A DNA stretch of 14,071 bases from Podochytrium sp. JEL0797 (lineage: Eukaryota; Chytridiomycota; Chytridiomycetes; Chytridiales; Chytriomycetaceae), in the NCBI GenBank assembly GCA_027596195.1, contig JADGJG010000694.1, positions 1-14,071 on the forward strand, written 5' to 3'. A program made the position numbers and the translations under genes. Positions 1-14,071 of the stretch are shown piece after piece. The notes beneath the pieces were generated by a model. That model searched no databases. It had not been told where the DNA came from and saw only the letters and a program-made list of their open reading frames with translations. Every line of letters begins with the position of its first letter. Positions within the stretch are counted from its first letter, which is position 1.

Positions 1-28
1 CCCCCCCCCCCCCCCCCCCCCCCCCCCC
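1..28. repeat. Poly-C homopolymer at window edge
   Basis: The window opens with 28 consecutive C, followed by GCCCGGGTCGA, which contains a SmaI/XmaI site. No gene or telomere-like repeat is attached. A pure C run exactly at a sequence end is most simply a sequencing or assembly artefact, or residual adaptor-like sequence. A genuine G/C tract that stopped the assembly is the alternative. Confidence 0.8.
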
Positions 29-178
29 GCCCGGGTCGATTCACCTTCCTCCAAACGAATGCAGAATGGGCTGACTCACCCTCACGAACGACGCAAGAGA
101 ATGGGCTGATCCCATTATTGAAGAAATAAAAGAAAGGACAACAGAAAGAAGAAAAAGAGAGAAACGGAGGACCATCTC

Positions 179-546
179 GTCTCCTTCCGAGCTTTTCTCA
201 AAAACAACCAACTGGAGGGTCCAATTGAACTGGCAAATCTTTTGAAGCACACACTGTTGAACTTGAGCTACAACTCTTATTTGATTGGTGAAGTGCCAGC
301 TGAGTTGACGGAATTGGATCAGTTAGTTTTTTGAAATTATGCGAGCGTCCAGGTGTAACATCCACTGTTGAGTTTCGGGAAGGTGTGTTGGAAACGGATG
401 ATGATGAGGATGATGGGTGTTGAATTCATAAAGTGAAGCTTGCTGGTTGTCCCCTCTCCCGTCAGATTCCTGAGGAAATTGGAAGCCTCAAAATGTTTGA
501 AACCCTTTGCTTAAACCCGATCTCTTGTTAGGGCCGATTCTGATTT
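179..546 (+). pseudogene. Degenerate plant-type leucine-rich-repeat relic
   Basis: Two stretches translate into recognisable LRR units of the plant or receptor-like type (L-x-x-N-x-L-x-G-x-I-P-x-E-L). In the frame starting at 179 one reads KNNQLEGPIELANLL, then LLNLSYNSYLIGEVPAELTEL, ended by TGA at 332-334. In a different frame, 454-531 reads LSRQIPEEIGSLKMFETLCL, ended by TAG at 529-531, and a third frame continues with LLLGPI around 522-539. Between them (about 335-430) is unrelated sequence with a GATGAT-rich patch at 396-416. The stops, frame changes and interruption show that this is a broken remnant. Intact relatives are usually surface or secreted proteins. The 5' part may have been lost at the window edge. 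Confidence 0.65.
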
Positions 547-745
547 CCTGACCTTCTCTTTTTTCCTTGTCTACTAGCTGGCACAGCTGCGTTTCCCTCC
601 CTTTTCCAACAACCTCTAGTCCTGGGAGTCCTGTGAAACTTACCGTCCTTGGCATTGACAATACGTCGGTTTGTGGGCGATTGACCCTTACTGTAAAAAT
701 AGATAACTTTTTATTAATTTTTATTAGTAAAATTCATGAAAAAAG
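547..745. other. Intergenic DNA upstream of the first GRAM gene
   Basis: No coding region is recognisable here. The last ~55 bases are strongly AT-rich (TTTTTATTAATTTTTATTAG) and probably hold the promoter and 5' leader of the gene starting at 746. An in-frame TGA at 737-739 blocks upstream extension of that gene. Confidence 0.5.
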
Positions 746-1621
746 ATGACCAAAACCCTCCAGCGCACCTTCAGCAAACGGTGGTCTATCCATTCGAATG
801 AATCCACCCGCACCCTCAAAAGCTGGTCTTGCCGACACTCCATTCCGAAAAGTCCGAACAAGCCACCGTTCTTCTTTTGCGCTTTGAGGGAGGGTTATAT
901 GTTGTGGCAAGGGAGGCTGTATCTTGATCAGGCGGACCAGGTGCTGCTGTTCAAAAGCGCATTCCATTCGGCGGATGTGAGTGTGATTTCACTTTCTCCG
1001 ACCTCTCCTTTCCCACCTACTTCAATATCACATAAAGGCATTACTTCCGGTTTCGCTGGTAGAGTTTGTACAGAAGATCAAATATCTCGGTGTCGATACC
1101 GCGTTGGCGATTGGTGTGGGCGGCAAAGAAGTGAGGAATATTGGTCAGCGCACTCAATTTCTTAACATGACGCACGTATTTAGTACCAGTTCACGTCTTT
1201 CTTGGCTCGTGACCAAGCCCTTGGGATGATACAATCCATGGTTTATGAAAATCTCGCTGCTTCAGTTATTTCAAGCCACCTCGCGAATGGTGTCGCGTTT
1301 GCTCCAGAAGAAAGTCCTCGCACACTGGAGGAGAAAACCCCGTGTGTCTGTAGTCCTGTCCCTGAGGTTGTACCAACCAAGAAACCGGCCCAGATCCCGT
1401 GGATGCGGCGGTGTGCGAAAAAATCGTTTGTGGTGTTCAAGACGCCAGTCATGGGGTGTGAAGAGTCTACTGAAGCTTGTTATAAATGGGTTGTTACGCG
1501 TGCTGGGTTGGTGATTGCAACGGTGTTTTTGGTGTTAAGTTTGGTCGTGCTTGTTGAGAACTTTTTGGCAATGGAAAAACTGGATCTGGCGGCGAGGAAG
1601 CTGGGTGCAGAATTGGGATAA
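746..1621 (+). CDS. GRAM-domain protein with C-terminal membrane anchor (copy 1)
   Basis: I read three exons, 746-976, 1038-1130 and 1184-1621. The introns (977-1037, 61 bp; 1131-1183, 53 bp) are GT-AG and fall between codons, giving 253 aa. A basic Ser/Arg-rich N-terminus (about 1-48) precedes a GRAM domain (about 49-135). The domain begins with F-C-A-L-R-E-G-Y, then LWQGRLYLD, and after splicing ends with YQFTSFLARDQALGMI, the usual F-x-S-F-x-x-R-D ending. A proline-rich linker follows, then a strongly hydrophobic segment (GLVIATVFLVLSLVVLV) about 25 residues before the C-terminus, suggesting a tail anchor. There is no VASt/StART-like sterol domain, so the layout resembles GRAMD2/GRAMD3-type contact-site proteins. 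By family knowledge GRAM binds phosphoinositides or phosphatidylserine; the ER-contact role is inference. An ATTAAA lies just after the stop (1628-1633). Confidence 0.8.
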
Positions 1622-1679
1622 TGTTTCATTAAATTTATTATTCCTTTTTCCCTTCCTTTTATGGGAGAGAAATCACGTG

Positions 1680-2618
1680 ATGAATTTTTTTCGATTCAAA
1701 TCAATGCGAGCCAGGGAACCCCCAAGGAAACGAGCCTCTTCCAGTTCTAAAGAATCTAGCCAATCAACGCTCTTCTCGGTTACAAACTCATTGGGACGAA
1801 ACCCAGACTCGCTTCCAGCCAAGCTTCAGCTCGGGCTTGAGAATGAGGTCACAAGTCCGAAGGGCGGTTTCTCGTGCGCCTTGAGGGATGGATACAAGCT
1901 CTGGAAGGGGATGCTATACGTTGATCAAGTGAATGGGAATATGTTGTTCAAGAGCCAGTTTCGTGCAGATGTGAGGTGACTTCTCGATTTGAAATCGTTG
2001 AAACGGAAAAAAATTCAGATTGCGCTGCCTGGGCCGGATGTCGTCACAAAGACAAAACATCTGGGCTTCAACACATCCATCACGATTATAGCTAATGACA
2101 AAGAGGTGTGTGGTTTTATTTGTTGATTTGACTAGAATTGAATTCGAATTTTCCAGTACCACTTTGTCGCGTTCTTTTCTCCAGACAAGGCTTTCAAGTT
2201 GATTGAGTCCATCATTGTCGAGAAAAAGATGCTCTTTGAGTACCCCCCGCCTCTCGTTCTACCTCCTGTCGCAGTGGAATCACCCTTTCCCCAAAAGGTT
2301 GTTCCTCCAAGAAAAGCTGAGAATGATGGTGCAAGTGTGGTTCCAGTGTCTGTGATGGCGCGACTGCGCTTGGTGAGGGCGGATTTGAAGCGATTGAGGC
2401 CAAAGGTGCAGTTTTGCCGAGACAGGGAGAAGCCGTGCATATTTCAGAATCTTGTGTGCGGTGAAGAGAAAGGGGGGGCGGTGTGCGAAGATCGCTTTTC
2501 GCGGCTCGTTTTGGGCGTTGCGGTTTTGTTTGTGACGTCCAATTTGTTTGTCTTGTTTTTGTCCATGATGGCGCTGGGCAGAGCGGATCAAGTGATAGCC
2601 GGATTGGTGAAGAAATAA
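1680..2618 (+). CDS. GRAM-domain protein with C-terminal membrane anchor (copy 2)
   Basis: I read exons 1680-1970, 2019-2105 and 2157-2618. The introns (48 and 51 bp, GT-AG) interrupt the GRAM domain at the same two places and phases as in the upstream gene, giving 279 aa. The N-terminal ~60 residues are Ser/Arg/Lys-rich. The GRAM domain (about 62-150) starts GGFSCALRDGYKLWKGMLYV and ends YHFVAFFSPDKAFKLIESI. A proline-rich linker (YPPPLVLPPV) and a basic patch follow, then a hydrophobic anchor (LVLGVAVLFVTSNLFVLFLS) ~20 residues from the C-terminus. Its start lies only 58 bp after the stop of copy 1. The two are clearly tandem paralogues, but the linker sequences differ widely, so the duplication is not recent. 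The start could be 1704 (next in-frame ATG). The exact lipid ligand and membrane cannot be read from the sequence. Confidence 0.8.
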
Positions 2619-2779
2619 CACTTTCTCTTCCTTTTTAAGGACAGAAAGAAATATGTAGAAATGTGGTGTCTCTCCTTTCTTTCTCACATGAGATAAATTC
2701 CTGTTTTCAACGCGTTCTCTTTGCGGTTTCATTTTCAAGCCCCCATTCTCGCCCCCACGAAAATTCGGTTCGACAAGTC

Positions 2780-3325
2780 ATGCAAACAACAATCGCCCAA
2801 CTTCCTTCCTATGATGAGGTTCTTCTGGAAGAGCTTCGTGGCACTACCGCGGCGGGTCCGGCTGTTCATATTGCCGTTCAGAGGCAGATTCCTGCGCCAC
2901 TTGCAACTGAACGTCCACCAGCGCAACAGACAATGGACCAGCAGAACGAGCTTTTCAATTCCATCCGTCAACAGACTATCCGTCAACAGCAGATGCGTCT
3001 CTTGGCAGCAGTGAAGAGGGAGGCGTTGAACGAGGATGCTGCGATTGCCAGAATCATTGCGAGGTTGGAACTGGCTGACAGCGCCGAGGAGGAAAGGGCA
3101 AGAAAGCGGCAACTACATAAAGATGAGCAGCTTGCGAAGAAGTTGCAGAGAGAATCTGATCGCGCGGGAAGGGTCGATTCCAGAGCGGCTCGGAGTCATG
3201 ATGGTTCTTTTATGAGTCAGGAAGGGAGACAAGTGCAACCAAACATTCTTCAGCGCCAACAGCAAGCAAGACTCGTTTATGTCGCGAATTCTCAACAGTG
3301 TGTGAATCCGTGGGGATTCTTTTAA
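2780..3325 (+). CDS. Small LPxY / MIU-like motif protein (paralogue A)
   Basis: This is a single-exon gene of 181 aa, mostly hydrophilic and Gln/Arg/Glu-rich. Near the N-terminus is LPSYDEVLLEEL (8-19), a PY-type motif of the kind bound by WW domains of NEDD4/Rsp5 ubiquitin ligases. A helical charged region (about 56-130) holds DAAIARIIARLE (86-97) and, 29 residues later, DEQLAKKLQ (115-123). The latter resembles ubiquitin-interacting MIU/UIM helices (D-E-x-x-A-x-x-L). The C-terminus ends in NPWGFF. I chose ATG 2780 over in-frame ATG 2663 because the extension is low-complexity and leader-like, and because the paralogue at 5115-5648 also places its PY motifs within the first ~25 residues. AATAAA follows at 3370. 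The motif reading is moderate; the ubiquitin-adaptor role is inference. Confidence 0.7.
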   Translation: MQTTIAQLPSYDEVLLEELRGTTAAGPAVHIAVQRQIPAPLATERPPAQQTMDQQNELFNSIRQQTIRQQQMRLLAAVKREALNEDAAIARIIARLELADSAEEERARKRQLHKDEQLAKKLQRESDRAGRVDSRAARSHDGSFMSQEGRQVQPNILQRQQQARLVYVANSQQCVNPWGFF

Positions 3326-3630
3326 CCTTCTCTGTTTGGTTTTCTCTTTCCGTGGTCTCCTGATTTGTAAATAAAGTTCAGCACGCTTGCGTGCACTCGC
3401 ACTCTCCCTGTCACTTCAGACTTTTCTAGATTAACCTGCATTCATGGAAAATGAGGGAGGGGAGACGCATTCCGATCTTCTCTCTCGAATCGGACTCAAA
3501 TCGCAATTCCGGGAAGGTATAGCAACTTCTCCACCTTCTTCCTTTTCCCTGTTTTCCCTCGTCGAACGTGGTGAAAACAACATGAATATTGAAGTCCGCA
3601 AAAATCTGCAAAAATCGAATCATCGCAAAA
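3326..3630. other. Intergenic: 3' UTR and poly(A) signal, then 5' leader
   Basis: The stretch holds the 3' end of the upstream gene, with AATAAA at 3370-3375, and the leader of the gene starting at 3631. A short frame from 3444 (24 codons, then a GGTATAGC donor-like site at 3516-3523) looks mildly coding. However, splicing it at the visible acceptor (AG 3593-3594) does not enter the frame of the downstream protein, so I do not call it an exon. Confidence 0.5.
3370..3375 (+). terminator. AATAAA polyadenylation signal
   Basis: A canonical AATAAA hexamer lies 45 bases after the stop codon of the gene ending at 3325, in TTTGTAAATAAAGTTC. It is followed by a TG/CT-rich stretch, as expected for a cleavage region. 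Confidence 0.6.
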
Positions 3631-4227
3631 ATGGACCCATCTCCGCCACACACACCACCTGTTTCGTCGACACCCCGCGATGCCATGCCGCCCTCTGAGT
3701 TTCTGCGCAGCTTCCTGGTGCCATGGTCCTCGGACCCAACGCCTGCGGAGCAACAGTACCGGTCCTTTGGATTCATCCGCACGACGGCGTCCGTGTTCCC
3801 TTTGCAGATGCTGGAGGACTTTTGCAGCGGTGATCTCTCTAGGGGACTTCAGGCAGCGTTCGAGGCACCGCACTCGGCGGCTGCGGGTGCTCGTCTGACC
3901 GTCGGCGCGCGTGCGCTGTGCAAACATTACGAACGCAGGACCATGGAGACACACCCCTTCTGGAAACAACCCACGGGACCAGAGGCGAAAAAGAATGCAA
4001 TTGCAAAGGCGCATTTGGACGACTTGATGGCCGTGTTTGGATCCACGGATGAGCTTGTGTGTTGGAAGAACATTCACAATATCCATCCCAACAACACTAC
4101 CATTATCGAGGTGCGAAACACGGAGAACTATTATGGGATGAGGTGGACTGTTGTTTTTGATTCCAAAGAGGATTTGGATGGACCGTATCGATTGGAGTTT
4201 CGAGGATTCCTCGAGCCAACTGCTTGA
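3631..4227 (+). CDS. Uncharacterised protein with C-terminal FRGFLEP signature
   Basis: This is a single-exon frame of 198 aa from ATG 3631. An in-frame ATG at 3589 would add 14 basic residues and is less likely. No signal peptide or membrane segment is visible. The N-terminal ~20 residues are Pro/Ser-rich. Conserved-looking blocks are GARLTVGARALCKHYERR, HPFWKQPTGPEAKKNAIA, a W-x-N-I-H segment, and at the end YYGMRWTVVF ... LEFRGFLEP. From memory, this order (GARAL-K-H, FW-x-x-x-G-x-E-x-x-KN, W-x-N-I/L-H, GYGxRW, FRGFLEP) occurs in a family of unnamed proteins in fungi and some bacteria. I know of no established function. The gene converges on the gene ending at 4352, with 124 bp between the stops. 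Confidence 0.7.
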   Translation: MDPSPPHTPPVSSTPRDAMPPSEFLRSFLVPWSSDPTPAEQQYRSFGFIRTTASVFPLQMLEDFCSGDLSRGLQAAFEAPHSAAAGARLTVGARALCKHYERRTMETHPFWKQPTGPEAKKNAIAKAHLDDLMAVFGSTDELVCWKNIHNIHPNNTTIIEVRNTENYYGMRWTVVFDSKEDLDGPYRLEFRGFLEPTA

Positions 4228-4351
4228 CGGTCCAAAGCGAAATACAAATCATTAAAAACATATTACACTGTATTCTTCACGCTTTCACAGCAATCAAAGC
4301 AACAAATTTGGACGGCACGCTTTCACACGACTGATCAATCCCTCCAATCCA

Positions 4352-4876
4352 CTACCACCATCTGCGCTTGCGACCCGTGTTCTGCTGCGAGTTCTTCTGA
4401 GGATAGAAACCGAACCAAGAGCCCCACGTGTTGTAAGGTTCTTCGACTCGAACTCCGCCGTTCATCGAATGAACCGCCATCGCTTCTCCCAAAGGCACCG
4501 TTTCGACTCTGTACGTCACGGAATGGTCCTGAGGATAAATGATGGCATCCGTCGAGGCACCTGGATAACCGGCCATAGCGCTCTGCTTTGTTTTCCGGGG
4601 AGGAAGACGGTGGCTTTCCACGCCGATCTGGGCCATGCCGTTCTGCGTGACGATGGGGATCAAGGGCGTTCCGTTTGCAGTGTAGAGGATGGGAGGCTGC
4701 TGTTGCATGTGTTGATCGAACTGTTGCTTGTTGTCGGAGTATTGTGGCAGATACTGTGGGGGCTTCTCGCCGGGCGGAAGGTTGCCGGGAGGATAGTTGC
4801 CCTGGGCCATCGAAGCTTCTTGCTGTGCGAGGCGCTGGGCATAGACTTCGTCGAGCTTTTCGGATTGGTTGGTCAT
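4352..4876 (-). CDS. Small PPxY-motif Pro/Gln-rich protein
   Basis: This is a single exon of 174 aa, predicted largely disordered and rich in Pro and Gln. The N-terminus has DEVYAQRLAQQE (9-20), resembling the D-E-x-x-A-x-x-L helix in the two neighbours at 2780-3325 and 5115-5648. Then come tandem PY motifs: PPQY (39-42) and directly LPQY (43-46). PPxY is the classic WW-domain ligand. A block around 95-130 and the C-terminal EEPYNTWGSWFGFYPQ, followed by basic GRKRRWW, are distinctive but not recognised. The start is the first ATG after a short A/T-rich leader, with a TATA-like element ~70 bases upstream. A role as adaptor for a NEDD4-type ligase is inference from motifs. Homology to the other two is weak outside the motifs. 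Confidence 0.7.
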   Translation of the reverse strand: MTNQSEKLDEVYAQRLAQQEASMAQGNYPPGNLPPGEKPPQYLPQYSDNKQQFDQHMQQQPPILYTANGTPLIPIVTQNGMAQIGVESHRLPPRKTKQSAMAGYPGASTDAIIYPQDHSVTYRVETVPLGEAMAVHSMNGGVRVEEPYNTWGSWFGFYPQKNSQQNTGRKRRWW

Positions 4877-4942
4877 TGTTATGTTTGTAATGTTTTTGGA
4901 AGAATTTTATGTTTCGAGCGCAGGAGGCGCAGCGCAGTCGAA

Positions 4943-4951
4943 CCTTATAAT
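4943..4951 (-). promoter_or_regulatory. TATA-like element
   Basis: On the minus strand the sequence reads GATTATAAGG, about 70 bases before the ATG at 4876. Position and composition fit a TATA box, but no transcription start is visible. Confidence 0.35.
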
Positions 4952-5114
4952 CGTCTGGTGTTAATCGGTGAAGAATGGCAACGAAAACTGGAGGTTACTC
5001 GAAAATAAGAAATTACACACATTCTGGTAAGCTTATACTGCAAATATTATTTACTTCAAATGATATGACGAGGAAAATGAATGAATGAATTTTATCCAAG
5101 TTGTCACGGAACAG

Positions 5115-5648
5115 TCACGATTGCGGTCCTCCACGCTGTTCAAAAGCACTCACGGGCAGTTCTGGTAATGGACCTCTCGTTCTCCATCCATTCACAAGTC
5201 GAGAGTCGCGGGGTCCCGACGCGTGCCGTGGAATCGTTGGCGTTTGCACCGAGCTGTGTTGAGTCACTGGTGCATATGGAGTGGAATGGTCCAGGTTCCA
5301 TTGGAGGTGCTTTGCAAGTAGTTCGTCGCGTTTCAGTTGGAGTTGGGTGGCGTATTCCGCTGCTTTGATTGCGCGAACTTCGAGGCGGGCGAATTTACGG
5401 GCGAGGGTTTCGTCTTGAGAGCGTGTGGAGGGGAGGATGGAGTAGAAGAGGGTGGGTTGTTTTGGGGTTCGGGTGGGGATGGGGGTGGAAGTGGGAGAAT
5501 GGGAACGCGGGGGTGGCGAAGGCGAGTCTCGCGTTGAAGGATGGAAGTCTTGGCCGAATTCTTCAAGGAGAACTGATTCGTAGGATGGGAGTGTTGAATT
5601 CGTGGATGCCACAGAATAGGACGGTGGTGTCGATTGACTTTCAGGCAT
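5115..5648 (-). CDS. Small PPxY/LPxY + MIU-like motif protein (paralogue B)
   Basis: This is a single exon of 177 aa. The N-terminus carries PPSY (8-11) and LPSYESVLLEEF (20-31), nearly the same as LPSYDEVLLEEL in the gene at 2780-3325. A Pro/Ser/Thr-rich disordered segment (about 36-75) is followed by DETLARKFARLE (79-90) and DELLAKHLQ (108-116). The spacing between the two D-x-x-x-A segments is 29 residues, identical to the other gene, so these are diverged paralogues in inverted orientation. PPxY/LPxY motifs bind WW domains, and the DE-LA--LQ helix resembles ubiquitin-binding MIU/UIM helices. Together these suggest an adaptor between a NEDD4/Rsp5-type ligase and ubiquitinated cargo (inference). 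A TATA-like ATATAAG lies ~90 bases upstream. Confidence 0.72.
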   Translation of the reverse strand: MPESQSTPPSYSVASTNSTLPSYESVLLEEFGQDFHPSTRDSPSPPPRSHSPTSTPIPTRTPKQPTLFYSILPSTRSQDETLARKFARLEVRAIKAAEYATQLQLKRDELLAKHLQWNLDHSTPYAPVTQHSSVQTPTIPRHASGPRDSRLVNGWRTRGPLPELPVSAFEQRGGPQS

Positions 5649-5842: not shown

Positions 5843-8747
5843 TCACGCCTTCGTGGCCGCAGCAGGCGCAGCTCCAGCAACAACCTCCTTCTCCAATTCA
5901 ATCATAATCTCGTCCCCAATCACACTTTGTCCAGCCTTCACGAGCACCTTCATGACCTTACCGGCTCGTGGAGCCCGGATCACGTTTTGCATCTGAATTT
6001 GCGGGATGGTTCAGGAGGCAAGTCTCGAGGGGAGGCTGAACGAAACAAAAAAAGGAACACACCTTCATGGCCTCGACGATTCCCATCTCGGATCCTTCCG
6101 CAACAATGTCGCCTTCCTTCACGGCCACACTCACCACCACACCGGGCATGGGGGAAAGGATGACGGACGTGAGGTCGAGCTTGGGCTTCTCCTTCATGTG
6201 TTTCGAGAGCTCGTGTTGCAGCGGGGATTCGACAATCACGTCAAACTGGTGTGAAATCAAACAAGAATTAGAACCTCAAACCATACTGTGAAAAGGGAAC
6301 AAAAAAGACGGTGTTACCTTGGTCCCCAAGAATTGCAACCGATATCCAACGGGCAAAGGCTCCAAAAACTGCACAACCACATTCTCTCCGTCCACAACTC
6401 CCTCCACAAGCGGTTGGTTGATTGTCCAATCCACAGTCGTCTTCACTTCCGAACCGGCGATTCCCACAGTCCAAGAACCGTCCTTCTCCTTCTCCACGGT
6501 CACGTGGTCCTTCTCGCCCGTCTTTTTGAGACACACGTGCAAGTCCCATTCCGTCTTCTCACCCTTGAACCCGGCAAGCGACCCACCACCCGACACCCAC
6601 GAGTTGTCGCGAAGGTCTCTCATGGCGTACACGACCGCAGCCATACTGAACAGTTGCATTTGCTTCTTGGCGTCCAGGACGGCACCCTTGAATCCTTGTG
6701 GATATTCCGTTGGCAAGAAGCCGGTGGTGATCTTGCCGAGGGCAAAGTTGGGGTGGGAGATGACGTCGCGCAGGAGCGGGATGTTGTGGGTTACGCCTTT
6801 GATGACGTAGCGGTCGAGAGCGGATTCCATGCGGTGGCGGGCGATTTCGCGGGTTTCGCCGTAGGTGCAGAGTTTGCTGTGATTGGGAGGGGGGAGAGGG
6901 TGCGTTCAGGAATTGATCAAGGACAGAAATGAAAATCAACTCACCAAATCATGGGGTCGTAGTACACGCTAATCTCGCTTCCCTCCACGATTCCAGAGTC
7001 ACAACGCACATCGTTCCCTGCGGCAGTCACGGGTTTCGGCTCAATGTACTTTGTGAGACGGCCGATCGATGGCAAATACTTTTCGGGGTCTTCGGCATAC
7101 ACGCGCGACTCAAACGCCCATCCTTTCGGCTTGGCAAGTTCGGCTTGGTCAAAGTTGAGCTTCTGCTTGGCGGCAACGCGGATCATTTGCTCGACAAGGT
7201 CGATGCCGGTGATGTATTCGGTGATGGGATGTTCGCTGGAAAGGGAGATGGTTAAAATGAATGCGGAGATTCTCGTCGATGGAGCGAAAATTCAAAACAC
7301 TCACACTTGGAGACGCGTGTTCATTTCGAGGAAGTAAAAGTTTCTCTGCGGGTCCACGAGGAATTCACAAGTTCCAGCCGAGTAGTATCCGACGTTCTTG
7401 GCGAGCGCGACGGCCTGTTCTCCCATCGCCTTTCTCGTGGCGGCGTCAATGTGAACGGAAGGGGCTTCTTCAATCACTTTCTGGTTGCGTCGTTGGATGG
7501 AGCATTCGCGTTCGGGGAGGTAATACTAATTTTGTGAGGATGATTTTAGTAATCGGAAGAGGAAAAGGGTGAAAAAGTCAAGATGTACATGCCATATTTC
7601 CATGCGTGTCGCCAATTAATTGAATCTCGATGTGTCTTGGCTCCTCGATAAACTTTTCCACGAGCATGCGGTCGTCTCCGAAACTTGCTTTCGCTTCGGA
7701 TTTGGAAAGACGGAAGGCTTCGCGACATTCTTTGTCATGGCTGTGATTGGTCGCGAACGAATTAGAAAGAATGCCCAATAATTGCACGGGGGTAACTCAC
7801 TAGGCGATACGCATTCCCTTTCCACCACCACCGGCGGATGCCTTGACCATGACGGGGTATCCGATCTCGTTGGCTAAATTGGTAAGCATCAGTAAGGGAT
7901 TGGTGAGCAGTCAAAAATTGACTCACCAACTTCGACGGCTTTGTCGGCATCTGGAATCTCTCCCTTGAAACCGGGAATGGTGTGAACTCCGGCAGCTTTT
8001 GCGATCTACCAAAAAAGAGATCAGTAATCTTGTTTCGATGCGAGCAAAAACGCGACGGCAAAAACGCGTTTTCGCGAAAAACAAAACACGGACGCGAAAT
8101 TCAAAACACACACCTTTTTGCTTTCAATCTTGTCGCCCATCAGAAACATGCTCCTTGCCGTTGGTCCGATAAATGTCACGTTGGCGTCTTCGAGTGCTTT
8201 GACAAAGTGCGAGTTCTCGGAGAGGAAGCCGTAGCCAGGATGCACGGCCTGGGCACCCGTATCCTTGACGGCCTTGAGAATGTTTTCCCAGACAAGGTAC
8301 GACTGGTTGGTTGGTGCGGGTCCCTATCAAAACGAGGGTGAGCAATTTGGCGCCACAACAGTCATAAGGAGGCAGAAAGGAAATCAACTCACAATGTTGA
8401 CGGCTTCATCGGCAAGACGGACATGGAGAGAGTTGGCATCTGCGTCTGAATATACGGCAACGGTCTTGATGCCCATTTTCTTGGCTACAAAGCAGTCAGT
8501 ATCGAACGGGATCGAATCAACACAACTCACCCGTCCTGATGACGCGGCATGCAATCTCGCCTCTGTTTGCAATGAGAATCTTGTCGAAGGTCTGGTGGCC
8601 AGGAGGTTAACGGCTGTGCGATCAAGCGTGAGTGGAACCCACCTTGCCGTAGTCGACGGGGGCAGCACTGGTGGCAACGAGGCGGGTTTTGAGCGGAGAG
8701 AAGCACGACAGCGACGGACGCGGTGAGACTCGGCGGAGGGCGAACAT
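5843..8747 (-). CDS. PCCA: Propionyl-CoA carboxylase alpha chain, mitochondrial
   Basis: This is the biotin-carrying subunit. It carboxylates biotin with ATP and bicarbonate; the beta subunit then makes methylmalonyl-CoA from propionyl-CoA. Twelve exons: 8747-8643, 8591-8531, 8484-8393, 8323-8114, 8005-7927, 7873-7801, 7740-7593, 7525-7305, 7235-6945, 6876-6318, 6245-6063, 5992-5843. They join in frame to 723 aa, close to animal PCCA. The first ~33 residues are Arg/Ser-rich without acids, a mitochondrial presequence. Biotin carboxylase follows ([28 protein letters not shown]-grasp AGGGGKGM at 196-203; [10 protein letters not shown] with E323, N325, R327). Next comes the PCC-specific middle region, then the biotinyl domain EAMKMQN with acceptor Lys674, split by the last intron between K and M. 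That middle region and close PCCA similarity argue against methylcrotonyl- or pyruvate carboxylase. Intron 7 (7592-7526) keeps frame only as GC-AG. Confidence 0.96.
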
Positions 8748-9170
8748 GTTTGGGGTGTGTTTGTTTTCGTTCTTTTGGCGAATCCCAAGTCCAAATCGCG
8801 GAACGAAGTCGGAGTTTTTCGGAACGCGTCCAGTCAGCCACTTTCGCAACTTTTTGGCCCATCCAAATATTCACATTTATAATGTGCGTGCCAACTTAAG
8901 GACCCCCATTGCAACGTCAACTCCAATTCCGTTTCGAGAAAAAACAGGTAAAATATAAGATTCCGTTCGAACCTTTGTTGCATGAACCACATCGCACGGG
9001 GGCTTTTGCCATCATGCGTCACGTTGATTCGCTCATCATTTGGCACCATCAATTTCGATTCTTTTCGTGCCCTCCGGTCATCAATCCCTCCAGTTTTGTC
9101 GTCCCGCTGCAGCCTGCAGGGACTACATTTGGGATCAGTGTTGCGCGCACCACACAAAAACCTTCCTCGA
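8748..9170. other. Intergenic region upstream of PCCA
   Basis: It should contain the PCCA promoter. Short open frames exist on both strands but none shows a recognisable domain, and no tRNA or repeat array is visible. A small palindrome CTGCAGCCTGCAG lies near 9108-9120. The right end merges into the transposase relic. Confidence 0.45.
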
Positions 9171-9482
9171 ACCGATGGTGACTGGATTTCTTGACCGCGA
9201 ATTGCGCTTTGGCGAATGAGAGCCCTTCACTGTATGCACTCTCCCACCTTCCAATGGATCGAAATTGTCTCCGTATCAGCGTTGTCGTGACTTGACTCGA
9301 GGCATCCCGGATTGCATCAAGTGTGCTTGATGGTCCACAAATGATTCGACGCACTTGTTGACAATGTCCTTCATGAATGCCCACACGAGCTCCATCACGT
9401 TCAACTCACAATGGAATTTGGGAAGCATGATGCAGAGATGACCGCGAAGGTGGATGACTTCTTGGACAAGGAAATCGTCGGA
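9171..9482 (-). pseudogene. C-terminal relic of a fungal DDE transposase
   Basis: Reading the minus strand from 9482 gives SDDFLVQEVIHLRGHLCIML, then PKFHCELNVMELVWAFMKD. This is the pattern of the last catalytic region of a Tc1/mariner-like DDE superfamily common in fungi (D-F-x-x-x-K/Q-S ... RGH ... LPKFHCELNxIExxW). E at 9390-9392 (MELVW) would be the third acidic residue. A frameshift near 9355-9370 moves the continuation to another frame. There it reads QQVRRIICGPSSTLDAIRDA ... IRRQFRSIGRWESAYSEGLS, ending AVKKSSHHR, matching the usual IRRF-x-R-x-x-x-Y-x-x-AYxxGL ... AVKxxxSHRR tail. The first two catalytic aspartates and the N-terminus are absent, so it is truncated and inactive. The family assignment is by remembered motif pattern. 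Confidence 0.7.
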
Positions 9483-9489
9483 ACTTCCC

Positions 9490-9866
9490 TTCCAAATAAA
9501 TATAATCTTTGTTGAAGCAAGAAGTGAAATTGATCAGAGTGAATCTATTCATTCTTCAACAATTGGCACACAAAAATAAAAATGAAACTAACTAAGCTTC
9601 TGCCTCGCCATTCTACTCATCATTCCTGCTTTGATTGACACTGGGACTGGGTTTTGTAGCGGGCAGTGTGGTCGCGATTTTCCTGATTGATACCTCATTC
9701 AGTTCTATCAGCAGATTGCTCACGCTGTCTGATGTGTAGTGTGCCTGTTCCAGTTCTCGAGTCCATTTTATTGATTCCTTATTCCTAGTCTCCGTGGCAG
9801 ACCTGCTACGTGCAAAAAACAAAAAAATTCTTCGATCTTTTTTTTTTCCCCCGTAGGGGTCTGCAG
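9490..9866. other. Intergenic, no recognisable gene
   Basis: A minus-strand frame around 9613-9780 (reading KWTRELEQAHYTSDSVSNLL and onward to a stop at 9613) looks mildly protein-like, but it has no start context, no visible domain and stops nearby. It may belong to the transposase relic or be chance. A T10 run at 9838-9847 followed by CCCCC-GTA-GGGG lies at its right end. Confidence 0.4.
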
Positions 9867-9888
9867 TACGTTTAGACACCCAAACGTA
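9867..9888. repeat. Perfect inverted repeat in helicase promoter
   Basis: TACGTTT (9867-9873) and AAACGTA (9882-9888) form a perfect 7-bp inverted repeat around an 8-base spacer. It sits about 10 bases upstream of a TTTATAG element, a position that could bind a dimeric regulator or mark an element end. No binding protein is known. Confidence 0.45.
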
Positions 9889-9897
9889 AACAAACGC

Positions 9898-9904
9898 TTT
9901 ATAG
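9898..9904 (+). promoter_or_regulatory. TATA-like element of helicase gene
   Basis: TTTATAG lies 120 bases before the proposed start codon at 10018, which includes a 71-base leader intron, so it lies ~49 bases from the start in a spliced transcript. Its position fits a core promoter. Confidence 0.4.
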
Positions 9905-9944
9905 CCCCACGGCCACACATCGCACCACCACCAAACTTTGAGCG

Positions 9945-10015
9945 GTAAGTGATATGGCTACGGCGCCGAAGCTGTCGAGCCGGATTTCTGATTGCTCTTC
10001 CCGTTCGTCTTTTAG
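9945..10015 (+). other. Probable 5' UTR intron of helicase gene
   Basis: A strong donor GTAAGT at 9945 and a pyrimidine-rich acceptor (CTCTTCCCGTTCGTCTTTTAG) ending at 10015 bracket 71 bases. The acceptor lies two bases before ATG 10018. Removing it places that ATG just after the acceptor and deletes the alternative upstream frame. Confidence 0.55.
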
Positions 10016-10017
10016 AC

Positions 10018-11967
10018 ATGGGGTCCAAAGACGAATACGCAGCCCTCGTCGCAAGCGTCAACGATGAGGTCTGGAACTCTCCGCCACGAGACTGGCAGCT
10101 CTCTTGTACTGTGGCGCTTCTCGCTGGACAGGATGTCACCATGGTTGTGGGCACTGGCTCTGGCAAGACCTGGGTCTTCATTTCTGCGCTGCTTGCGCAC
10201 TTTCGCCTCCAACCCAACCCCGCCACACGAAAGGCGCTCTTGATCGTCTCTCCACTGGTCGCGCTGATCAAGGACCAAATGGCGAGTCTTCAACGCATGA
10301 GCGATGCGCACGGATGGAACCTCAGGCTCGGCGCCTTGGGCGCTGCATCAGACACCCGCCATGTTGTCACCGACTACTACGACGGAAGCATCGACGTCCT
10401 ATGGCTCTGTCCCGAGTCGCTACCTCTCTTGAATGTCACAAAGAGCTCGAAACTGTTGGAGGAACGAACTCTCGCCTTCATTTACGACGAAGCCCACGCG
10501 ATTTTGGACACGCAGGACTGGAGAGCGAAATACCGGGCTTCCACGCTTCTAAGAGAGCATTGCAGAGACGTGCCAGTCTTGATCTGCTCAGCCACAATGC
10601 TTGTTGCGGACCTTGTGGAATTGAAGCGGCTGCTGTTGTTTTGGGGTGGGGAATATGAGCATGAGTTTGTCGGTTCCATTGACCAAAGCGAGATTTACTA
10701 TCACATTCAAGAGAGGACGACCATTCCAAAGGTAAAATCACGTCACCGATTCAAATCTAATCAGTCCCAGGACTTCAAAAAAATAAAGCAGGATTTAATT
10801 GACGATACTCTCGACTCCTCTCATTACCCCATCATCATTTTCTGCAACCAGACCAACAAAATCAGAGAGATTCATGCCTTCCTCACCGACGGCCTTTCTG
10901 ACAAGCAGGCGCGTGTCGTTCGCATGTATATCGCAGCAAACAGCGATTCACACAAGTCTGCAGTTCTTGAGGCCATCAACGACCTGGATGGAGGCATTTC
11001 TGTCATTCTTTGCACCTCAGCCCTTGGAGTTGGAGTTGACTTGCGCTCTGTTCATTCTGCCATCCACTACAAACTTTGTCGGTCATTCTGCGACTTTGTT
11101 CAAGAAATTGGGCACTGTGGTCATGATGGTCAGGATGCAGTGCACATTTGTTTCTGGAAGAGCTCCGATTTGGACGCCCTGCTTCCAGTCGGCAAGCAAA
11201 AATCGAAGCATCATCGAAAAGTGGCAACTCAACGTGCAGCCCTGTCGTCGGCTTACCGCGAGTATGGGAGTTTGATGGACGAGGAGGCTGAGCAAGCTTG
11301 CATGCGCGAGTCTCTTCTTCGACCACTCGTTTCCTCACAAGTTCTTGATCCGGCCCATACGCGCTGTTGTGCATTGTGCTCACTCTCTCGCAACGTTTCT
11401 GTTCCAACCATTGTCAATTCCCTGGCTACCAGCACAGTCTCGCGAAGTCGGGCGCCAACTGATCTGCAAGCATTATTCAGCAACCGCGTCGTTGAGATTC
11501 GCTTGCTGTATCTTCCTTCACAAGGATCGGGGGCGGCGATGAATTTGGTGATTCCTTGGAGTATTATCCGAGACAGTCTCGTCTGTATTGAGTCGATTTC
11601 ATCGGGCGAGTTCGATTGGGATGAGAAGCACAACAGTACGCCGCCCCAATTTCGTCAGGATGTGTGCGGTTTAGCTTTCGCAATGTTGACGGAGCAGGTG
11701 GCCGTGAGGGAGGCACAAGAGCGGCATATTGAGGAGGAGAAGAGGCGTCAGAGGGAGGAGAAGGCGGTGGTAAAGGCAAGAGAGAAGGAAGCCAAGGAGG
11801 AAGCAAAGGTGAGAGAGAAGGAAGTCAAGAAGGAAGCAAAAGTGATGGCAAAGGCAAGAGAGAAAGAAGCCAAGGAGGAAGCAAAGGCGCAAAAGCGAGC
11901 AAGAGAAGAGGAGGAGAAAAAGGTAGTTAAGAATGTGTATAAAAGGAAGAAGAGGGGCTCAAAATAA
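10018..11967 (+). CDS. RecQ-like superfamily 2 DNA helicase, motif VI arginines lost
   Basis: I read exons 10018-10731 and 10771-11967 (636 aa). The 39-base intron has GTAAAA, a CTAAT branch-like site and CAG, is a multiple of three and lacks stops. RecQ motifs in order: DWQ near 25-27; Walker A GTGSGKT (45-51); SPLVALIKDQM; PESL; DEAH (157-160); SAT (191-193); PIIIFCNQTNK (motif IV); CTSALGVGVD (motif V); motif VI as QEIGHCGHDG, where RecQ has QExGRAGRDG, so both arginines are His (353, 356). Spaced Cys (QACMRESLL ... RCCALC) resemble a reduced RecQ zinc module. The last ~75 residues are a Lys/Glu/Ala/Arg-rich coiled coil ending in a basic KRKKRGSK, likely nuclear. There is no HRDC or RQC winged-helix signature and it is short beside cellular RecQ proteins. 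ATG 10018 is preferred because 9949 lies in a probable intron. It is tail to tail with the DUF6589-like gene. Confidence 0.88.
   Translation: MGSKDEYAALVASVNDEVWNSPPRDWQLSCTVALLAGQDVTMVVGTGSGKTWVFISALLAHFRLQPNPATRKALLIVSPLVALIKDQMASLQRMSDAHGWNLRLGALGAASDTRHVVTDYYDGSIDVLWLCPESLPLLNVTKSSKLLEERTLAFIYDEAHAILDTQDWRAKYRASTLLREHCRDVPVLICSATMLVADLVELKRLLLFWGGEYEHEFVGSIDQSEIYYHIQERTTIPKVKSRHRFKSNQSQDFKKIKQDLIDDTLDSSHYPIIIFCNQTNKIREIHAFLTDGLSDKQARVVRMYIAANSDSHKSAVLEAINDLDGGISVILCTSALGVGVDLRSVHSAIHYKLCRSFCDFVQEIGHCGHDGQDAVHICFWKSSDLDALLPVGKQKSKHHRKVATQRAALSSAYREYGSLMDEEAEQACMRESLLRPLVSSQVLDPAHTRCCALCSLSRNVSVPTIVNSLATSTVSRSRAPTDLQALFSNRVVEIRLLYLPSQGSGAAMNLVIPWSIIRDSLVCIESISSGEFDWDEKHNSTPPQFRQDVCGLAFAMLTEQVAVREAQERHIEEEKRRQREEKAVVKAREKEAKEEAKVREKEVKKEAKVMAKAREKEAKEEAKAQKRAREEEEKKVVKNVYKRKKRGSK
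11773..11886 (+). repeat. Internal 78-bp-period direct repeat in helicase tail
   Basis: A 36-base unit at 11773-11808 (coding KAREKEAKEEAK) recurs at 11851-11886 with one mismatch, 78 bases apart. A more diverged copy (REKEVKKEAK) lies between. It encodes the charged coiled-coil tail and probably grew by slippage or unequal exchange. Confidence 0.75.
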
Positions 11968-11968
11968 A
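11963..11968 (+). terminator. AATAAA overlapping helicase stop codon
   Basis: AATAAA contains the TAA stop of the helicase (11965-11967). If used, cleavage would fall 10-30 bases on, within or just inside the opposite gene's 3' coding end. Overlapping signals at this 23-bp junction suggest very compact packing. Confidence 0.5.
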
Positions 11969-11989
11969 TTTGGATAGAGAAGAGAATTT

Positions 11990-11995
11990 TTTATT
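11990..11995 (-). terminator. AATAAA overlapping stop codon of the opposite gene
   Basis: On the minus strand AATAAA (TTTATT on plus) overlaps the TAA stop at 11993-11991. The opposed transcripts would then end inside each other's 3' region and be complementary over a short span. Confidence 0.5.
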
Positions 11996-14071
11996 TGTCC
12001 TCCGTTGCAACATCAGAGCCCTCCGACTCGGACGATTCATCATCGAAAATCCCGCCGCATCTGTTTTGCACTGTTTGAATAACGTGTAACGCTTCCTCAT
12101 GAAGATCCATTTGTGCTTCCGACACCAGCAGAGCTTCGAATTGTTCATTTGGCACATCCGAGAGGATATTGAATTCCTTCAAATTTCTGTAAAAGATGTC
12201 CAAATCGAAAGTTGATTTGGGAGGTGGGTGGTACCCGTTTTTCATCGTAATGCCGAGCCCGTTAGCCATCTGCTGCTTGGCCTTGAACATGCAGTTTGCA
12301 GCCAATGATCGCGCGTAGGCTGTCTCATAGTCGTCCGTGTGCTTGATTCCTTTGCACTCTTTCAAATGCTTGTTGAAATGTTCCTGACGCTGATCCACCG
12401 CGAAATACGAGTTCCAGAGACCAGACGGATTGACAAAGCGAAAGTATTTGCTGCGGTACGCAATGTCCTGCCTTAAGAGAGACTGAAGCTGGACTTGCTC
12501 ATGGAGAAACGCGTTGAAGTATCGGCTGGACTGAGCCATCCCTCCCTCCTTCAACAGCAGCAAAAACAACATATGCATTTCCACAACACCATCCCCATCC
12601 CCTGTACTGATGCAGTCGTTGAAAACCAGGTACTGCACCCCGAAACGGATAAACTCCAGTACGTATGCCCGCTTGGAAGCAGGCTTGGTGCGGCAAACAA
12701 CTGTTTCCAACTTTGTCTTCCCATCCTTGTTTTTCCCCCTCTTCAACACAGCTTCACTGAGAATTGTTACATCCTGTTCGTGCTCCTCAACCAACGTGAT
12801 AATTCTGTCGACAACCTCGTCCAGCTTCGCCGCCAGCTCCAAACCAGAATCACCCACAGCTGCGCAACATTCCTCCCGCGAAATGGCCACGTACATCTCA
12901 CACACATCCTCGACGAGCCTCTCCTTCTCGTAGAAAGTAAACTTTTCGTGGCTGTCATGTTGGAATCGTCGATCGCGGATCCGTCCCAGGTCACCTAGTG
13001 TTCCATGATCCTTGAGGCCGTTGTACAAGAAAATTTTGTAGAATCTCTCGATGAGGGCCATCTTCACGTGGAATTCTCCCATTCCGAAATGGGCCCAACA
13101 GAATCGCTCCACGTCTGAACTGCCGATTTCGGGAAGTCGAGCACCTTTCGCAGATTCCATGATAGCAAAAAGCCCGAGATCGCCGAAGAGCAGCTGTTCG
13201 ATGGACATGTTGTCAAAGCCGGCAGCTGATGCTTCACTGGAGCCTTTTGTTGGAATGGCGTGTGTCTTGATATAATGGTCGAGAATCTGCGCCATTCCAT
13301 CAAGAGTTCCTTGCTTGAAATCCAATAGACCAGTAGGAATGAGGTCGTTTCGAATTGGAACTCGCGAGGTGCCGCATGATGGACGCTTGAGCGCAATGTC
13401 CTTGAACTCGGGGAGGTTCTGGATAAGAATGTTCGCAATCATGCACCGCTGCCTCTCCTTGTAATTGGAGAGTGTCTGAGCGTTTGGTAGAATGTGAAAC
13501 GGTTTCAATTCGGACAGTGGAATGGCGGGAATGCTAGGAAAATCAGGAATGTCGCCCACGAAGTAGATTTTGGACGTGTTTGTCCGAGAGTACAATTCGG
13601 AACTTTTCTCGAGCGTTCCCTTGACCTCGTGATACTCCTCCACGTTGTCTTGCACCCATCCAATGAGAAGAGGTTTGCAGACGCGCTCGATTGCGGCTTC
13701 TGCATCGTCGACAAGCTTCCCAATGTTGATTTTGGTGGCCGTATACGAGAGGCCGAACCCAAGCTGCGAGCAAATCTCGATAAGAAGCTGGGAGGCGTCG
13801 TCCCCTTTGAGGCAAGTTGATAGTAGCCTCTGCATGTATCCAAGTTGGAGATTGTGAGTGAACGCGATCACCGATACTACTGACAAGGCACGGTTCGGGT
13901 GTTTTTTGAGGTCGGGATGCGTCGCTGTTCTGGGATGAGTACATAGCGTTTCACATACGCGCCAAAGAGCGGGGCAGTCCTTGACAAACTGCTGCTTCAA
14001 GTTGTCCAAGTCGAATGACGCGAAATCGACACCAAGAGCTTCCTCCTTCCTACTATTCTGAGAAAACACAC
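11991..14071 (-). CDS. DUF6589-like protein, 5' end beyond window
   Basis: A continuous frame of at least 692 codons runs from the window edge to TAA at 11993-11991. No ATG start is visible at the edge, so the N-terminus is missing (partial). The pattern fits the fungal DUF6589 family as I remember it. There is an N-terminal helical block (SVIAFTHNLQLGYMQRLL ... QLGFGLSYTAT). Then comes W-V-Q-DN at visible residues 139-142, with SRTNTSKIYFVGDIP after it, and DLIPTGLLDFKQGTLDGM. LLFGDLGLF (GD at 296-297) and GEFHVKMALIERFYKIF (331-347) follow. DN, GD and the G-x-F-H block are the family's most constant points. The acidic C-terminus (DDESSESEGSD) is disordered. The function of DUF6589 is not established; a nuclease or transposase-like fold is speculation. 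It converges on the RecQ-like gene with 23 bp between stops, suggesting a linked pair. Confidence 0.72.
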   Translation of the reverse strand, partial: VFSQNSRKEEALGVDFASFDLDNLKQQFVKDCPALWRVCETLCTHPRTATHPDLKKHPNRALSVVSVIAFTHNLQLGYMQRLLSTCLKGDDASQLLIEICSQLGFGLSYTATKINIGKLVDDAEAAIERVCKPLLIGWVQDNVEEYHEVKGTLEKSSELYSRTNTSKIYFVGDIPDFPSIPAIPLSELKPFHILPNAQTLSNYKERQRCMIANILIQNLPEFKDIALKRPSCGTSRVPIRNDLIPTGLLDFKQGTLDGMAQILDHYIKTHAIPTKGSSEASAAGFDNMSIEQLLFGDLGLFAIMESAKGARLPEIGSSDVERFCWAHFGMGEFHVKMALIERFYKIFLYNGLKDHGTLGDLGRIRDRRFQHDSHEKFTFYEKERLVEDVCEMYVAISREECCAAVGDSGLELAAKLDEVVDRIITLVEEHEQDVTILSEAVLKRGKNKDGKTKLETVVCRTKPASKRAYVLEFIRFGVQYLVFNDCISTGDGDGVVEMHMLFLLLLKEGGMAQSSRYFNAFLHEQVQLQSLLRQDIAYRSKYFRFVNPSGLWNSYFAVDQRQEHFNKHLKECKGIKHTDDYETAYARSLAANCMFKAKQQMANGLGITMKNGYHPPPKSTFDLDIFYRNLKEFNILSDVPNEQFEALLVSEAQMDLHEEALHVIQTVQNRCGGIFDDESSESEGSDVATEDK

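Follow-up and report, generated by a model that had tools for sequence, protein, structure and literature searches.

A convergent RecQ-like helicase and DUF6589 gene pair of Podochytrium as part of a probable AcademH-like DNA transposon

Why do a RecQ-like helicase gene and a gene of DUF6589, a Pfam family of unknown function, converge almost stop to stop at the end of a chytrid contig, and do they belong to one mobile unit? We addressed this question in a stretch of 14,071 nucleotides, hereafter the window, which is contig JADGJG010000694.1 (C661) of the genome of Podochytrium sp. JEL0797 (24.4 Mb, 995 contigs). The original prediction, made from the sequence of this stretch, proposed that the pair at 9867..14071 could be a single, undescribed two-gene mobile element. 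We find that the pair almost certainly belongs to a transposon, and we put at roughly 0.78 the probability that the segment starting at 9786 and continuing past 14071 represents an AcademH-type DNA transposon, probably a copy that is immobile by its own proteins.

The gene pair and its recurrence

The RecQ-like superfamily 2 (SF2) helicase gene occupies 10018..11967 on the forward strand, and the DUF6589 gene, cut by the contig end, lies at 11991..14071 on the reverse strand. As had been predicted, the two large frames converge with only 23 bp between their stop codons (11968..11990; 6-19 bp in the four other pairs described below), and AATAAA overlaps the stop codons of both genes. Both protein identities proposed from the sequence are supported by Pfam. 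The helicase matched DEAD (1.6e-18) and Helicase_C (1.9e-9), its top solved chains in the comparison with the PDB were bacterial RecQ and human BLM, and HRDC was absent among its Pfam matches at E <= 1. The DUF6589 protein matched PF20231 at 1.7e-25, with 90 bits against a curated cut-off of 27, which was also exceeded by matches on five other contigs.

When the helicase was used as a query against its own genome, the protein search gave 12 matches, six of them at E < 1e-28 at five loci (C661, C407, C461, C142 and C92), and a convergent DUF6589 gene was present at all five, with stop-to-stop gaps of 23, 19, 16, 14 and 6 bp, respectively. The pair therefore recurs convergently on five contigs, the window included, and the association of the two genes is beyond chance, since every strongly matching helicase contig has a convergent DUF6589 gene. 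No DUF6589 match was found on the contigs of the six weaker helicase matches (E 6.6e-6 to 3.9e-4). The reverse search with DUF6589 gave 16 matches on eight contigs, five of which also have a helicase match, and a Pfam DUF6589 family search of the genome gave eight matches on six contigs, again with a helicase on five. Identity to the window copy ranged from 23 to 47% for the helicases and from 22 to 50% for the DUF6589 pieces, and this strong divergence implies that the two genes are old co-travelling partners rather than products of a single recent duplication.

The window helicase retains the P-loop TGSGKT (46) and the DEAH motif (157). The arginine finger of such helicases sits in motif VI, which reads QEIGRGGRDG in C461, QEIGRGARDG in C407, QEIGRGGRNG in C92 and QESGRVARNH in C142; in the window it is QEIGHCGHDG, and both arginines are gone. 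The window helicase is thus probably inactive despite its open frame, and, judging from these residues, the window copy is probably defective and unable to move by its own proteins.

Element ends and target-site duplications

Where does the element begin? Followed outward from the inside, the copies match as far as TAGTCTCCGTGGCAGACC (window 9786) and then diverge. The sequence from 9786 onward recurs at C209, C547, C79 and C356, all four of which share the first 18 bases identically, and an inverted second copy is present at C209, C547 and C79. The 986 bp to the left of 9786 do not recur together with the element; only short patches of them were found, on contigs without it. These patches (9489-9564, 9623-9671 and 9693-9764) show 80-98% identity on C526, C932, C636, C608, C119 and C820. 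The predicted span does contain the pair, but the element starts 81 bp further left than proposed, at 9786, and its DUF6589 end is cut off, the right end lying beyond the contig end.

The outermost left end (9786..9813, forward strand), which begins TAGTCTCCGTGGCAGACC, stands outside the long inverted repeat. It is followed by the left subterminal inverted repeat at 9815..10031 on the same strand, which holds a putative promoter, the 5' leader and, directly before the helicase ATG, a putative leader intron read from the sequence (GTAAGTG...TTTTAG, 9945..10015, forward strand); the GTAAGT..TTTTAG pattern is also present in C461 and C407. Bases 1-246 of the window element align with C356 at 87%, and bases 30-268 correspond in reverse orientation to the other end of C79. 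Subterminal inverted repeats of about 165-215 bp with 81-93% identity were found in C461, C547, C79, C209 and C564, and the outermost 26-47 bases of both ends lie outside the aligned repeats. The opposite end starts TAGGCTCA, with a run of C shortly after, so that there are two unlike end types, TAGTCTC... and TAGGCTC.... Both ends are present in the C461 element (2-5025, 5,024 bp). Because the inverted repeats contain the gene leader, each of the two genes seems to have its promoter in its own end of the element. The helicase adjoins the TAGTCTC end in the window and C461 and the TAGGCTC end in C407, and in C356 it is the DUF6589 gene that adjoins the TAGTCTC end. The interior may be present in both orientations relative to the end types, an arrangement that recombining inverted repeats would give, on the evidence of four loci to which assembly error may contribute.

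A scan for the end motif allowing up to three mismatches gave 25 + 14 real sites against 26 + 16 for a reversed-pattern control, and a second pattern gave 11 + 5, below its control (28 + 22); we therefore used only sites with inverted repeats or two facing ends. Among eight short candidate stretches, two facing ends were found in C564, C1 and C940. The other five (C153, C881, C954, C134 and C378) had no two facing ends within the stretch and were excluded before duplications were counted.

Seven copies have both ends and readable flanks (C79, C547, C209, C564, C1, C940 and C92), and four of them are bounded by exact 9-bp duplications: GGAAGATCC in C79, CCAAATTCC in C209, TGTTTTTTG in C564 and AGAGTTTGT in C1. 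When random 9-mers were drawn from four loci, such agreement occurred in 2.5e-5 of 200,000 draws. In the window the left half of a putative duplication, CCTTATTCC, lies at 9777..9785 and abuts the TAGTCTCC end at 9786; its right half is off the contig, and its 9-bp length is taken from the other copies. Sharp ends, long inverted repeats, duplications on non-coding relatives and convergent recurrence thus bear out the proposal of one two-gene mobile element. The two outcomes that would have spoken against mobility, homologues of the genes never lying side by side elsewhere and a lack of any boundary, were not the ones observed.

The non-coding copies appear to have arisen from coding elements by deletion, because C564 aligns with C461 in its outer parts (stretches of 428 bp and 212 bp, 76-88%), and C79 can be aligned with C356, closely in the two end regions (90%) and weakly in the interior (67-71%). 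The copy at C1:13923-14034 (L061) is a 112-bp miniature with both end types and the exact 9-bp duplication AGAGTTTGT. C79 and C547 hold the same deletion copy and right flank with different left flanks, and the common right flank indicates a rearrangement or misassembly at one of these loci. The flanks of C92 are themselves inverted repeats, placing the element inside a larger palindrome. Its 459-bp inverted arms (99.8%) were considered as long terminal repeats and rejected because their outer 210 bp occur alone elsewhere, and the element ends were accordingly placed inside, at 10158 and 14913. The arms (C92:9948-10406 and 14665-15123, L054) extend about 210 bp past these ends into a dispersed repeat that is also present on C843 and C977.

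The end of the window is shared with C356 over exactly 55 bases and no more, and C142 and C407 each terminate in an exact 55-base inverted match to their own helicase leader. The right ends would therefore be missing because the contigs end on exact 55-base repeats, at what look like assembly breaks, as would be expected if the assembler stopped at repeats as long as its k-mer. In addition, parts of DUF6589 are directly repeated at the contig ends of C142 (24128-29897; 2,885 bp, identical) and C407 (13781-19041; about 2.6 kb, 99.3%). They could be assembly artefacts or tandem duplicates and were not counted as extra copies.

A candidate transposase and the family of the element

Which of the two proteins would move the element? 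In the original prediction, DN at 141, GD at 296 and G-x-F-H at 331 of the DUF6589 protein were candidate active-site points. The positions of DN 141, G-D 296-297 and GEFH 331 are correct and the two aspartates are largely conserved; we add E563 as the likely third acidic residue. In an alignment of 12 rows, several of them near-identical C407 pieces so that independent cases are fewer, D141 of the DNVE motif (13647..13649, reverse strand) is D in five of the six rows aligned there, and D297 of the GD motif (13179..13181, reverse strand) and E563 of the VDQRQE motif (12381..12383, reverse strand) are each kept in all nine covering rows. D559 is likewise invariant in nine rows, D491 and E429 in ten each and E144 in six. 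The DN(V) motif is also present in the upstream frame of C823 and in the C92 gene model, and the block containing D297 is absent from the gene model of P0002, a close relative (58%) from the same organism on a 6,194-bp contig that could not be located as such in the assembly searched. D141, D297 and E563 would form a candidate D-D-E set with a long insertion, which suggests, as far as the aligned residues go, that DUF6589 is the enzyme moving the element, a putative DDE-type transposase. The window protein is truncated at its N-terminus; DUF6589 frames reach further upstream in C461 (881 residues) and C356 (457 residues), the latter by about 180 residues.

Few relatives came up in wider searches. 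Three protein database searches, each scoring the 7,997 candidates with the most shared words, so that homologues in distant fungi may have escaped, recovered four further proteins from Podochytrium besides that of the window itself, and a single one from Obelidium mucronatum. Viral contigs scanned with a single window protein, a scan that reaches close relatives only, gave no relative, and a PHROGs search gave no match. When compared by sequence, solved structures included no significant relative of DUF6589.

These features are consistent with a mechanism in which transcription of each gene would start from one of the similar leaders in the two inverted repeats and run inward. DUF6589, as a DDE-type transposase, would bind the subterminal repeats and would cut and join the element ends at a 9-bp stagger, while the RecQ-like helicase may open or process the DNA of the element termini as the element is excised or the break repaired. 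The non-coding copies would be internal deletions mobilised by the same proteins.

To which group would such a transposon belong? The helicase of AcademH belongs to superfamily 2, as does that of the window. The passages on Academ in PMC10045372, which cite Kojima 2020, give duplications of 9 or 10 bp for AcademH and 3 or 4 bp for AcademX, with a link to a helicase and a nuclease, and those in PMC10799480 place AcademH at low copy number in Basidiomycota, Ascomycota and Mucoromycota; in the relevant parts of PMC12210899, PMC8290104 and PMC9970103, Academ is merely mentioned or cited. Like AcademH as described there, the present element encodes a helicase (DEAD and Helicase_C, with RecQ and BLM as best chains), has a fungal host, and has relatives with 9-bp duplications (exact in four of seven, all non-coding) that fall within the 9-10 bp range. 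It differs in its chytrid host, in contrast to the three groups named in PMC10799480, and in a putative transposase labelled DUF6589; the two are likened by description and not by transposase sequence. Two unlike ends and a convergent gene pair are seen here; AcademH is known to us through the descriptions given in citing papers. The element is most likely to be filed as AcademH-like on the strength of its helicase and 9-bp duplications, the features of AcademH's published description. The proposal that the element is undescribed is not supported, since a helicase-bearing lineage with 9-10 bp duplications is already known from the account of AcademH in PMC10045372.

Could the pair instead be two host genes that became neighbours by chance, or members of an immobile subtelomeric RecQ family? 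The window pair does sit at a contig end, and fungal subtelomeres often harbour RecQ-like helicases, but the contig end is accounted for by the 55-base repeat, the pair recurs in varied sequence contexts with shared ends, and target duplications flank relatives that have these ends, making this reading very improbable. A Helitron was set aside: Helitrons make no target duplication, have no inverted repeats and encode a Rep/PIF1-type helicase protein, whereas here there are inverted repeats and duplications on relatives, and both Pfam and the PDB comparison identify the helicase as RecQ-like. Kolobok elements duplicate TTAA, and membership of that group was set aside as very improbable because the duplications observed are 9 bp long and variable (GGAAGATCC, CCAAATTCC, TGTTTTTTG and AGAGTTTGT). 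It does have its attractions, as KolobokH is described in the relevant passages of PMC9587614 as a DNA transposon of fungi that codes for a RecQ helicase, a red-alga Kolobok has its RecQ on the complementary strand, as here, and one match to the C/DxxH signature described for the group, CWAH at 324, lies between D297 and E563 of the window protein. However, CWAH is not conserved in the remaining alignment rows, and the RecQ of KolobokH is described as lying downstream of the transposase domain.

A weightier alternative, though still an unlikely one, is a separate, undescribed superfamily of DNA transposons, in which DUF6589 would be a DDE-type transposase of its own kind with a RecQ partner acquired independently of AcademH, two unlike ends and a flippable interior, and AcademH would be a functional parallel only. 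This would suit the differing ends and the interior found in both orientations relative to them, and the link between DUF6589 and Academ is one of description. Our literature search for DUF6589 among 5.39 million papers gave none naming the family, among the matches listed for PF20231 there was only an unrelated optics paper, and Pfam holds its function to be unknown. Against it, a helicase and 9-bp duplications together match the AcademH description, and AcademH has already been reported from other fungi in the passages seen in PMC10799480.

Several observations nevertheless weigh against an AcademH-type transposon. The assignment was made from the published descriptions of AcademH. Exact 9-bp duplications are lacking in three of the seven copies (C547 and C940 agree at six of nine bases, and C92 has none), all four exact ones are on non-coding relatives with none demonstrated on a coding copy, and the sole left-flank base of C461 disagrees with its right flank. 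Three of the eight DUF6589 contigs have no helicase match: C356, where the gene is represented by its 5' part only and the frame is lost; C823, where a solitary gene lies close to the end of the contig; and C352, whose copy is a relic full of stops. The C461 helicase match is interrupted by a stop as well as by a break that could be an intron, and none of the copies could be shown to be intact throughout. D141 is lost in one of six rows, the Obelidium gene model having K in a poorly aligned stretch. An RNase H fold was not obtained, as two structure predictions of low confidence (mean predicted local distance difference test scores of 47.7 and 55.9) gave no trustworthy match among solved structures.

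Surroundings and significance

The transposase relic that had been noted next to the pair proved to be a weak DDE_3 match only (9276-9530, reverse strand; 17.7 bits, below the Pfam cut-off of 28.6), probably a decayed piece of an unrelated transposase adjoining the element. To its left lie fragments of the gene for the alpha subunit of a biotin-dependent carboxylase (5958-8833, reverse strand; Biotin_carb_N, PCC_BT and Biotin_lipoyl), probably split by introns. The adjacent forward frames 746-1165 and 1551-1979 have a common CALR(E/D)GY.LW.G.LY.DQ motif and are likely a tandem duplicate, and 2663-3325 (forward) and 5115-5648 (reverse), with a common PSY(D/E)(E/S)VLLEE motif, are possible paralogues.

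New here is the link, in a chytrid, of DUF6589 to a transposase role with the candidate residues D141, D297 and E563, as the conserved positions suggest. Through its tie to a partner helicase and to element ends and target duplications, DUF6589, a Pfam family without an assigned function, acquires a transposase role that can be tested, and a Pfam DUF6589 match would let annotators spot such elements. Helicase-bearing transposons of the AcademH type would be extended to a chytrid genome, in which several coding copies and deletion derivatives mark their ends.
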